DNA from: Geomonas silvestris
GTDB taxonomy: Bacteria > Desulfobacterota > Desulfuromonadia > Geobacterales > Geobacteraceae
Assembly (NCBI RefSeq): GCF_014193515.1
Contig: NZ_BLXX01000016.1
Span: 1-64,000, forward strand
Direction of reading: 5' to 3'
DNA length: 64,000 nucleotides
Numbering within the stretch: position 1 is the first letter of the stretch; each line of letters opens with the position of its first letter. A program made the translations under genes and the position numbers. The notes beneath the pieces are model-generated. The model was not told the origin of the DNA, did no database searches, and saw only the letters and a list, made by a program, of their open reading frames with translations. Of the stretch, positions 53,890-56,832 are shown piece after piece.

Positions 53890-54840
53890 ATGAAGAAAAG
53901 ATACGAGCCGTTGGACATCTCGGGTGTCAGCACCTACCCCATCGCCGAGCGCAAGAACAAGGTCTCGGTGGCCCACGATTTCGCCAAGCCGGTCAAGGCC
54001 GGGATGAGTGTCGCGGACCTTTTGGCCGCGCTCCCCAAGCAGCTCGGCTCCCAGGCCCTCAACAAGGTGATCGACGCGGTGGTCGCCGCGCGGCGCAAGG
54101 GGAAACCGGTGGTGCTCGCCATGGGGGGGCACGTGATCAAGTGCGGGCTGCAGCCGGTGTTGCGCTCGCTCATCGAGGCGGACGTCATCACCGCGGTGGC
54201 CTTGAACGGCGCCGGCTCCATCCACGATTTCGAGATCGCCCTCATCGGTGCGACCAGCGAGGACGTGGGTGCCGTCCTGCACGCCGGCACCTTCGGCATG
54301 GCCGAGGAGACCGGCTTCCAGATCAACGCGGCCATCAAGGCGGGGGTCGAAAAGGGGCTGGGCTACGGCGAATCCATCGGCCGGATGATCAACGAGCGCG
54401 AGCTCCCCTTCAGAGGCGAAAGCCTCCAGGCGCTCTGCGCCGAGCGCGGCATCCCGGTGACCGTGCACGTCGCGGTCGGGACCGACATCACCCATCAGCA
54501 TCCCACGGCGGACGGTGCCGTCATCGGCCAGGCGAGCTACACCGATTTCCGGATCCTCACCTCCGTGGTCTCCGAGTTGGGCGACGGCGGGGTGTACCTG
54601 AACATCGGCAGCGCCGTGCTGCTTCCCGAGGTGTTTTTGAAGGCGCTCTCCATCGCCCAGAACCTGGGGCACCACGTCGATCACTTCACCACCGCGAACT
54701 TCGATATGCAGCAGCACTACCGGCCGCTCACCAACGTGGTGAAGCGCCCGACCTCCGGGAAGAGCCACGGTTACACGATAACCGGCCACCACGAGATCAT
54801 GCTGCCGTTTTTGGCAGCTGGGGTGCTGGACAGGCTTTGA
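53890..54840 (+). CDS. Deoxyhypusine-synthase-like protein of unknown function
   Basis: The 316 residues are cytosolic, with glycine-rich Rossmann-like motifs: VVLAMGGHVIKCGLQPVL, ALNGAGSIHDFEIAL, and TITHQHPTADGA-type His-rich turn (DITHQHPTADGAVIG). The overall pattern reminds me of deoxyhypusine synthase, but I see no counterpart of its active-site Lys region and no eIF5A substrate is expected in a bacterium. It starts at ATG 53890 with AAAGGA upstream, 49 bp after the sulfatase-fold gene, and lies before hldE. Confidence 0.5.
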   Translation: MKKRYEPLDISGVSTYPIAERKNKVSVAHDFAKPVKAGMSVADLLAALPKQLGSQALNKVIDAVVAARRKGKPVVLAMGGHVIKCGLQPVLRSLIEADVITAVALNGAGSIHDFEIALIGATSEDVGAVLHAGTFGMAEETGFQINAAIKAGVEKGLGYGESIGRMINERELPFRGESLQALCAERGIPVTVHVAVGTDITHQHPTADGAVIGQASYTDFRILTSVVSELGDGGVYLNIGSAVLLPEVFLKALSIAQNLGHHVDHFTTANFDMQQHYRPLTNVVKRPTSGKSHGYTITGHHEIMLPFLAAGVLDRL

Positions 54841-54846
54841 GCGGCC

Positions 54847-54881
54847 GTTCTAGGTTCTCCGTTCTAGGTTCTATGTTAGAA
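54847..54881 (+). repeat. Heptamer array, left arm (element D) flanking the IVP-family gene
   Basis: Five 7-bp units (GTTCTAG, GTTCTCC, GTTCTAG and so on) lie directly after the 53890-54840 gene. Units 1-4 (54847-54874) pair with 55324-55351 at 26 of 28 positions. The array ends 28 bp before the TTG of the IVP-family gene. Confidence 0.85.
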
Positions 54882-54909
54882 TCGAGGCACTTCTCTTTGG
54901 GAGGGTGTT

Positions 54910-55302
54910 TTGAAGATAACCCGGTTCGAAGACGTGGAATCTTGGAAAGAGGCAAGGCTCCTGGTGCGCGATGTTTATAAGGTGCTCTCCCGGTGCCATG
55001 ACTTTGGCTATCGCGACCAAATGCAGCGTGCGGCTGTATCTGTCATGTCCAATATTGCTGAAGGATTTGACAGGGGGAGCAATAAGGAGTTCGTGCAGTT
55101 TCTCGTGATATCTCGAGGATCCCTTTCTGAAGTAACGAGCTTGATCTACGCAGGGCTCGATGTCGGGCATGTGGACCAAACTGCTTTCAATACGATCATA
55201 ACCCGTTGCACGAAGATAACGAACCTTCTGGATGGCTTTATCCGTTACCTAAAGCACCCGGGTAACCCTAAACCTAGAGCCTACCCAGAAGGAAGGGTCT
55301 GA
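54910..55302 (+). CDS. Four-helix-bundle protein, 23S rRNA intervening-sequence protein (IVP/S23) family
   Basis: The 130 residues form four amphipathic helices: FEDVESWKEARLLVRDVYKVL, YRDQMQRAAVSVMSNIAEGF, EFVQFLVISRGSLSEVTSLIYAG and the last helix around TRCTKITNLLDGFIRYL. RAAVSVMSNIAEGFDRG is the family hallmark. Homologues are encoded inside intervening sequences of 23S rRNA in some bacteria and are also known as Avd-type proteins near diversity-generating retroelements; molecular function unsettled. The TTG start has GGGAGGG 4 bp upstream. Codon use is more AT-rich than the neighbours, suggesting transfer. Inverted heptamer arrays flank it. Confidence 0.85.
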   Translation: MKITRFEDVESWKEARLLVRDVYKVLSRCHDFGYRDQMQRAAVSVMSNIAEGFDRGSNKEFVQFLVISRGSLSEVTSLIYAGLDVGHVDQTAFNTIITRCTKITNLLDGFIRYLKHPGNPKPRAYPEGRV

Positions 55303-55323
55303 AGGGTTCTTTTTGGTTACAAC

Positions 55324-55351
55324 ATAGAACCTAGAACGTAGAACATAGAAC
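55324..55351 (-). repeat. Heptamer array, right arm (element E) flanking the IVP-family gene
   Basis: Four inverted 7-bp units (ATAGAAC, CTAGAAC, GTAGAAC, ATAGAAC) complement 54847-54874. They end 17 bp before the hldE GTG. In RNA the two arms could pair as a 28-bp stem with the whole gene in the loop. Confidence 0.85.
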
Positions 55352-55368
55352 GATTTTCCGAGGTTTCC

Positions 55369-56832
55369 GTGGAACGCAGAGAAGTAGAATCATTTTTCGA
55401 AAGAGCGGCGCAGGTGCGCGTCCTGGTTTTGGGCGACCTGATGCTGGACGAGTACCTGTGGGGGAGGGCGGAGCGCATCTCGCCGGAGGCCCCGGTCCAG
55501 GTGGTCGAGGTGGTGCGCGAGGACCTGCGCCTGGGAGGCGCCGGAAACGTGGTGCACAACCTGGTGGCCTTGGGGGCTAGGGTCTCCATCTGCTCGGTCA
55601 TCGGCGCCGACCCAAACGGTGCGGTGCTGCGCCAGGCCCTCCAGGAACAGGGGGTGGAATTGGCGGGCCTGTTCGAGGAGGCCGAGCGCAAGACCAGCAA
55701 GAAGACCCGGGTCATCGCCGCCAACCAGCAGATCGTCAGGATCGACCGGGAAAGCCGCAGCGAGGTGACCGAGCACAGCCAAAAGGCGATGCTCGCCTAT
55801 CTCGAGGCGAACGCCCCCGGCTTCAACGTCATCGTGGTCTCGGACTACCTCAAAGGCGTGCTCACCCCGGAGGTCCTGGCTGCGGTCTGCCGGACCGGGC
55901 GAGAGCTCGGGACCCCGGTGGTGGTCGACCCGAAGGGGAGCGACTACGTAAAGTACCGCGGCGCCACCCTGCTCACCCCGAACCGCAAGGAGGCGGAGAT
56001 CGCCTCGGGAGTCGCCATCGTGGACCAGCAGAGCCTGGAAACCGCCGCGGCGCGGCTTTTGGGCTCCCTGGAACTGGACGCGCTCCTTATCACCCGCTCC
56101 GAGGCGGGGATGTCGCTGTTCCGCAGCGAGCTTCCCGCCGTGCACATCCCGACGGTGGCGCGCGAGGTCTACGACGTGACCGGGGCCGGCGACACGGTGA
56201 TCTCGGTCCTCTCGCTGGGGCTCGCCTGCGGCCTCAAACTCCCGGAAGCCGCCTGGGTCGCCAACGTGGCGGCGGGGATCGCGGTGGGGAAACTGGGGAC
56301 CTCGGTGGTGCTCCCCCAGGAGATCGTGGCCGAGGTCGGGCACAGCCAGAAGGACGCCGACGCCAAGATCAAGAACCTCGACGTCCTGTCCCACCTGGTC
56401 GCCGGCGAACGTGCCCGGGGCAAGAGGGTGGTCTTCACCAACGGCTGTTTCGACCTTTTGCACGTGGGGCACGTGAAGTACCTGCAGAAGGCCCGCCAGT
56501 TCGGGGACCTGCTGGTGGTGGGGCTCAACTCCGACGCCTCGGTCAGGCGACTCAAGGGTGAGCGCCGGCCGCTCATCGAGGAGTCCGAGCGGGCGCACAT
56601 CTTGGCCGCGCTCGACTGCATCGACTTCGTGGTCCTCTTCGACGAGGACACCCCGGTGCGGGTGATCGAGGCGGTCCAGCCCGACGTCCTGGTAAAGGGG
56701 GGCGATTATTCCCTCGACCAGGTGGTCGGGCGCGAGATCGTCGAGGCCCGCGGCGGGAGGGTCGAGCTGGTCCAGTTCGTGGACGGCAGGTCCACCAGCC
56801 GCATCATCGAGAAAATTTTGGCCTCTTACTGA
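55369..56832 (+). CDS. hldE: Bifunctional heptose-7-phosphate kinase/heptose-1-phosphate adenylyltransferase
   Basis: It makes ADP-heptose for WaaC and WaaF. The 487 residues combine a PfkB-type kinase (about 1-325, with the DVTGAGDTVISVLSL motif near 265) and a cytidylyltransferase-type domain with GCFDLLHVGHVKYLQ (359 onwards). The GTG start at 55369 has CCGAGG upstream. It lies right after element E and before gmd. Confidence 0.95.
   Translation: MERREVESFFERAAQVRVLVLGDLMLDEYLWGRAERISPEAPVQVVEVVREDLRLGGAGNVVHNLVALGARVSICSVIGADPNGAVLRQALQEQGVELAGLFEEAERKTSKKTRVIAANQQIVRIDRESRSEVTEHSQKAMLAYLEANAPGFNVIVVSDYLKGVLTPEVLAAVCRTGRELGTPVVVDPKGSDYVKYRGATLLTPNRKEAEIASGVAIVDQQSLETAAARLLGSLELDALLITRSEAGMSLFRSELPAVHIPTVAREVYDVTGAGDTVISVLSLGLACGLKLPEAAWVANVAAGIAVGKLGTSVVLPQEIVAEVGHSQKDADAKIKNLDVLSHLVAGERARGKRVVFTNGCFDLLHVGHVKYLQKARQFGDLLVVGLNSDASVRRLKGERRPLIEESERAHILAALDCIDFVVLFDEDTPVRVIEAVQPDVLVKGGDYSLDQVVGREIVEARGGRVELVQFVDGRSTSRIIEKILASY

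Follow-up and report, generated by a model that had tools for sequence, protein, structure and literature searches.

The window, i.e. the whole stretch of DNA that was analysed, comprises 64,000 nucleotides of a Geomonas silvestris contig; the genome (5.1 Mb) is assembled in 36 contigs. Within the window, a short gene enclosed by two inverted arrays of heptamers lies between two protein-coding genes. The features of the locus are:

53890..54840, + strand: upstream flanking gene of the GSU2086 family, intact
54846..54877, + strand: left arm, tandem inward-reading heptamers of the GTTCTAN type, one unit being GTTCTCC
54900..54905, + strand: GGAGGG, ribosome-binding-site-like, read from the sequence
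54910..55302, + strand: IVP / four helix bundle gene, TTG start, 130 aa
55321..55352, + strand: right arm, inverted heptamers NTAGAAC, complementary to the left arm at 30 of 32 positions
55369..56832, + strand: downstream flanking gene, hldE-like, intact

An earlier note had described a TTG-initiated, relatively AT-rich gene of the 23S rRNA intervening sequence (IVS) protein family in the loop of two inverted arms made of 7-bp units, placed between the 53890 gene and hldE without breaking either. Recomputation bore out all of these points. The arm cores 54847-54874 and 55324-55351 are complementary at 26 of 28 positions, and no other centre in the 64-kb window reaches 26/28 complementarity within 600 bp. 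Period-7 arrays make up both arms, and their score of 27 compares with at most 12 in 30 shuffles of the flanks. In profile searches, the product of the ORF was identified as PF05635 (23S_rRNA_IVP, 103 bits, cut-off 33.8) and TIGR02436 (four helix bundle, 97.5 bits, cut-off 24). The GC content of the gene is 50%, compared with 65-67% in the neighbouring genes, and several orthologues have GGAGG sites ahead of TTG or GTG starts. The downstream gene encodes PfkB and cytidylyltransferase domains, as expected of hldE, which we take it to be. The predicted RNA fold of the unit pairs the arms with each other (z -4.1), and an Rfam scan of 54500-55700 detected no family at the gathering score. PF05635 was the sole domain match of the ORF; the unit contains no transposase ORF, the protein lacks a Y1 (HUH) transposase domain, and no Avd model in NCBIfam matched it. 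Two relatives of the protein gave weak, sub-cut-off matches to the accessory protein Avd (bAvd) of DGRs, namely L001 (NF033474, 29.9 bits) and L311 (PF22296, 33.2 bits).

The locus was also said to show the architecture of a 23S rRNA IVS outside rRNA, and this comparison proved sound: as in IVSs, inverted ends form a long terminal stem around an IVP-family ORF. In Coxiella burnetii, the 23S rRNA IVS is described as a unit of ~430 nt with an S23p/IVP ORF and a 28-bp terminal stem; tandem heptamers (GACAGAT), in a copy number that differs among strains, lie ahead of the ORF, and mobility of IVSs had been proposed earlier (PMC4990558). The window unit differs in lying outside any 23S rRNA gene, between the GSU2086 gene and hldE, in having arrays on both sides, and in having dispersed gene-less relatives. 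Scanning the loci collected before the plasmid loci for seven short 23S words yielded two isolated matches, in L129 and L182. The earlier reading was too narrow, as IVS-like anatomy is usual among the sampled IVP genes and the window unit is no special case.

For the survey, 191 distinct IVP genes with at least 40 bits were gathered from PF05635 matches in 147 relatives (mainly the high-scoring end), from genus searches, and from 562 confirmed loci, of which the best 80 were taken; 189 were tested and two were excluded for short flanks. Because loci were fetched mainly from high-scoring or best matches, the sample is biased to strong family members. Flanking inverted repeats (score of at least 11) were found for 171 of the 189 genes, compared with 104 of 960 random segments. 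Both arms were periodic in 143 (85/108 from relatives and 58/81 from named loci) compared with 21 of the random segments, and 46 genes fell below the periodic threshold. The periods among the 143 were 7 (114), 8 (14), 9 (7), 6 (7), and 11 (1). In a fairer control, periodic arms enclosed 120 of 175 IVP genes and three of 326 other ORFs of 80-200 aa in similar loci. By record title, the named loci come from many phyla and one Methanophagales archaeal MAG. Seven cyanobacterial plasmid loci, some of them close relatives of one another, were fetched of 19 records matched; six pass both thresholds, and the seventh (L304) has a score of 15 but a lag identity of 0.44. As judged from these loci, an IVP gene inside inverted periodic arrays is a general and widespread design.

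None of 16 weak IVP matches (24-36 bits, two just over the cut-off) had GTTCTA or GTTCAA arrays in the locus. By eye, 13 of them are longer, four-helix-suffix-like proteins, and TIGR04258 was found in both that were scanned (L003 and L148). Eleven of these 13 (L145, L146, L148, L150-L156, and L159) contain, again by eye, in-frame short tandem repeats (e.g. DRS, STG, APT, and DSH runs).

Array and protein vary together. A clear unit length could be assigned in 158 of the 171 cases, i.e. 7 (126), 8 (17), 9 (8), and 6 (7). On a quick protein tree, unit length required 20 changes, whereas 1,000 shuffles gave a mean of 31.1 and a minimum of 26. The hexamer IVPs (n = 7) form one clade with a single change; octamers (14 changes vs 16.5 when shuffled) and nonamers (6 vs 7.9) showed no clear clustering. 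On average, the heptamers of close proteins differed at 0.85 of 7 positions and those of distant proteins at ~3.4-3.5, compared with 3.63 between random units. Heptamer mismatch was correlated with protein distance (Mantel r = 0.23, permuted maximum 0.07), also when close pairs were left out (r = 0.16, permuted maximum 0.08). Unit length and unit sequence thus track the IVP protein tree. The inward strand of the arms is G-rich (37% G vs 15% C).

Genus g11 and a genome from another family (G066) share the order GSU2086-IVP-hldE, and genus g7 shares the order GSU2086-IVP. Within the genus of the window genome, presence of the unit at the orthologous gap is patchy: 11 of the 19 genomes of the genus have it (three copies look frameshifted or truncated), three have a REP/Y1-transposase-like unit instead, and five have neither. 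The refuting outcome named in the earlier note, that relatives would all keep the gene without such arms, did not occur. Orthologues in other genera keep both stem and period. The arms at this locus differ by species and are of three types (GTTCTA, GTTCAA, and GTTCGA). Left and right arm agree in 16 of 16 cases, in that the commonest base of the right arm is the commonest or, in G003, G005, and G011, tied in the left arm. This concerted change could result from local slippage combined with hairpin template switching, or from recognition by a changing protein. dS was saturated in 25 of 28 orthologue pairs; the remaining three, which do not include the window copy, gave a dN/dS of 0.05-0.18. In the close relative G008 the unit is absent, but the gap has diverged and offers no clean empty site. 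As far as can be judged from these comparisons, the window copy is an old resident of its locus with both arms rewritten together, and no recent insertion.

Other sequences occupy the same gap in some relatives. In L074, L076, and L078 (G014, G007, and G013), it contains a Y1-transposase-like (RAYT-like) ORF with REP palindromes of the TAGGGGCGAATAATCATTCGCCC type; the L076 stretch reached 21.7 bits against a Y1_Tnp cut-off of 23, and the Y1-like identity was otherwise read by eye. Inverted arrays of other kinds (CACAGAGG-like and related), with no IVP gene, were seen in the hldE gap of G009 (L069) and also at L253 in G008. Direct 9-mer repeats of the GGACCAGTC type take the place of the IVP unit in G016 (L067).

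The window genome has two further PF05635 matches, a full one (C11) and a weak one (C13). The second refuting outcome of the earlier note, that other IVP genes of the genome would lack inverted arrays, did not occur either. The C11 gene has inverted arrays of a different heptamer, of the GGGRCTA type (score 28.5, shuffles at most 10.5); a classification as armless, based on a count of the window's heptamer alone, was overturned by a unit-free test that found these arrays. The C13 match (26 bits, under the cut-off) has no inverted arms, and its product is a TIGR04258 four helix bundle suffix protein. The C11 IVP was the sole query against phage records and had no match there.

The pattern GTTCTANGTTCTANGTTCTA had 112 matches in the window genome, with overlapping matches counting a long array several times and the IVP's own arms included, and the reversed-pattern control had none. 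Thirty loci were fetched for 30 of the 35 sites of a stricter array search; these loci overlap, so that distinct hairpins are fewer. In 24 of them, opposite arrays face each other over gene-less loops of ~40-170 nt, and five have a single array only. The window arms are thus members of a dispersed hairpin family. The loops look unrelated by eye. When ten hairpins were queried against G008, nine were located on both sides and none had a clean empty site; some are common to both genomes and decaying, and others lie in diverged gaps. An interpretation of the gene-less hairpins as simple recent insertions in the window genome was therefore rejected. In one hairpin common to G000 and G008 (L244 vs L022), the loop is ~60% identical and the arms are 82-88% identical, i.e. 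the loop diverged faster than the arms.

Dispersed arrays were compared with IVP arm types by counting overlapping pattern matches across the genus (19 genomes), the IVP's own arms included; comparisons among species are phylogenetically dependent. Hexamer matches numbered 20-79 in all five genomes with a hexamer IVP and 0-5 in all 14 without; four of four independent pairs agree, too few for significance. GTTCAA matches numbered 9-76 in ten genomes with a GTTCAA IVP, among them G009, a loose assignment made after the counts were known, and 0-3 in eight of the nine without. The exception, G018, has 79 matches although its IVP arms at the hldE locus are GTTCTA. For GTTCTA, the unit of the window, 112 and 116 matches were found in genomes with such an IVP and 1-122 in those without. 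The upper end of this range is G010, and G013 has 84 matches with only partial IVP-domain matches (best 36.4 bits, just over the cut-off, profile positions 8-73). GGGRCTR matches numbered 20-67 with such an IVP and 0-183 without (reversed-pattern control: three in G008, none in the other genomes). The 183 matches were observed in G008, the close relative without any IVP match. Dispersed arrays are thus common where an IVP carries their unit; their absence where a matching IVP is missing is clear for hexamers, near-clear for GTTCAA, and poor for GTTCTA and GGGRCTR. Two units fit well and two weakly; therefore arrays and IVP are matched for some units only.

In the wider family (48 genomes), GTTCTA matches occurred in genera g1, g9, and g11, and the other 23 genomes had none. 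Within g11, G043 and G033 carry GTTCTA-armed IVPs. Matches were also counted in G037 (64), G026 (93), G028 (16), and G041 (13), and no GTTCTA-armed IVP was found among those examined in these genomes (6 of 8, 3 of 7, 1 of 2, and 1 of 1, respectively), the single IVP of G041 having other arms. A strict requirement of a matched IVP for arrays is contradicted by G008, G010, G013, and G041.

Direct comparisons of insertion sites came from cyanobacterial plasmids. Site BC is filled by a 503-bp IVP unit in L300, and the sequences on either side of it adjoin each other in L312, no more than three bases being ambiguous. At site AB, a different unit of 417-418 bp is present in L311, L312, and L316, and the sequence is contiguous in L300, L313, L314, and L315. 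Comparison of L312 with L313 showed no target duplication at site AB; a candidate duplication of TTCTA was rejected, as other loci show that ATTCT belongs to the end of the unit. The AB unit also occurs at two other, unrelated loci (L323/L325 and L324) with 78-82% identity and homology ending at the arms, which brings the total for this 417-bp unit to three unrelated loci. At two further plasmid sites the picture is less clean, some 15-50 bp having been replaced as judged by eye. Loci L323 and L325 are 97% identical but have a left-arm difference of 14 nt, equivalent to two repeat units. Three plasmid unit ORFs that were scanned gave PF05635 only, plus one sub-threshold bAvd match.

Gene-less forms were found as well. 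L317 contains an internal-deletion derivative of the AB unit (~174 bp) with both arms present, and L305 carries a hairpin without a gene at the position that an IVP unit occupies in L301. In L316, a 183-bp gene-less hairpin made of the same heptamers lies inside the IVP gene, which is uninterrupted in L311. Matches to this hairpin lie at 99 places, distributed over 43 plasmid records; in 28 of these records a place covers at least 80% of it. GATAA follows in six of six copies examined (L316 included), without a clear target duplication. Whole IVP units behave as a mobile element in these plasmids and have gene-less relatives.

Taken together, the window unit (54846-55352) is one representative of a small-element class with a very wide distribution, in which an IVP gene lies within arrays of 6-9 bp units, usually 7. 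We think it rather probable that the IVP is a sequence-specific partner of its own arrays and that these arrays, with or without a gene, are the unit that spreads. The IVP would recognise or bind the tandem units of the folded stem, as DNA or RNA, and would drive the spread or upkeep of the arrays; the stem would be the unit that is moved or copied. Gene-less hairpins with the same unit could be non-autonomous satellites, as REPs are to RAYT transposases. Because the IVP has no recognised nuclease or recombinase domain, cutting and joining would presumably be carried out by another enzyme; the missing recombinase domain and the lack of any clear target duplication suggest a borrowed enzyme or events at the replication fork. 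Of the two activities once suggested for the protein, action on the stem gains from the co-variation of protein and unit and from the matching dispersed arrays of two of the four units. Mobility of the unit is borne out by the sequence comparisons of the plasmids; the window copy is an apparently ancient resident of a fixed locus and no recent insertion.

RAYT (TnpA_REP) is a Y1/HUH transposase whose chromosomal gene is accompanied by inverted repeats, with many gene-less REP palindromes elsewhere. The likeness lies in a protein gene with inverted repeats and many matching gene-less repeats genome-wide. In contrast, the scanned IVPs have no recognised nuclease domain, and their repeats are tandem 6-9-mers, not a REP palindrome.

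Alternatively, the arrays might be binding or RNA-processing sites of a regulatory network, with the IVP as a nucleic-acid-binding regulator, also of its own transcript, the stem of the mRNA as a putative RNase III site, and spread as an incidental matter. Tandem hepta- and octanucleotides of Geobacter metallireducens, occurring as opposite-strand pairs at variable distance, have been called putative binding sites of a global regulator, possibly IHF/HU (PMC2700814), and multicopy intergenic palindromic families as well as direct repeats of 6-42 nt are described for G. bemidjiensis (PMC2996986). These repeats resemble the IVP arrays, and the parts of both papers covered here draw no link to an IVP. 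A regulatory role would also agree with the fold of the window RNA, the purifying selection in the three measurable pairs, and the retention of one locus across genera. Against it stand the plasmids, where discrete segments, namely whole units and the gene-less hairpin, are either present or missing, and the patchy presence in the window's genus. We regard this explanation as unlikely, though it is the strongest competitor of an IVP acting on its own spreading arrays.

Still less probable, in our judgement, is that replication slippage and template switching in the host generate and homogenise the arrays, or that unrelated transposases (IS200/IS605-type) move them, with the IVP only as cargo or as an indicator of permissive gaps. 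Genomes rich in arrays but lacking a full IVP (G008 and G013) are in line with this, as are the 14-nt difference between the left arms of L323 and L325, which slippage would give, and the Y1-transposase-like/REP unit in the hldE gap of G007, G013, and G014. The GATAA next to the 183-bp hairpins, in the absence of a clear target duplication, recalls HUH transposition. Such hitch-hiking leaves unexplained why IVP genes in particular are enclosed (120/175 vs 3/326), why the unit follows the protein, and the hexamer pattern. That the window stem arose by chance, or is an inverted repeat of purely local origin beside an ordinary gene, has a negligible probability and is refuted by the IVP survey, the concerted arms at the hldE locus, and the control with ORFs of 80-200 aa, besides the uniqueness of the arm pair in the window and the stem and period kept in other genera.

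Returning to the IVP as partner of spreading arrays, a broader version can be put forward tentatively, at somewhat less than even chances. IVPs throughout bacteria and in one archaeal MAG might be recombinase-less mobile elements whose array ends are read unit by unit; they might explain many dispersed repeats of the heptamer type, and rRNA IVSs would be the members of this class that inserted into 23S genes. Even after decades of work on IVS elements and their protein, there is no consensus on their function, and several bacterial groups have heptamer repeats without a partner protein. A specific pairing of protein and repeat would link the two puzzles and, if true, suggest an origin of rRNA intervening sequences and mobility without an encoded transposase. 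Arrays of the heptanucleotide TAACTGA in Beggiatoaceae and cyanobacteria are dispersed, intergenic, and often located just upstream of start codons, and their author calls for an unknown repeat-binding protein (PMC4679880). Unlike the inverted IVP arms, they are direct repeats, with one inverted case, and the main text of that paper contains no occurrence of 'four helix', 'S23', or 'intervening' (PMC4679880). No report of an association between IVPs and arrays was found in a partial search of the open-access literature, with subscription papers and preprints outside its scope. Among solved structures, the IVP relatives 2gsc and 2rld contain five chains each.
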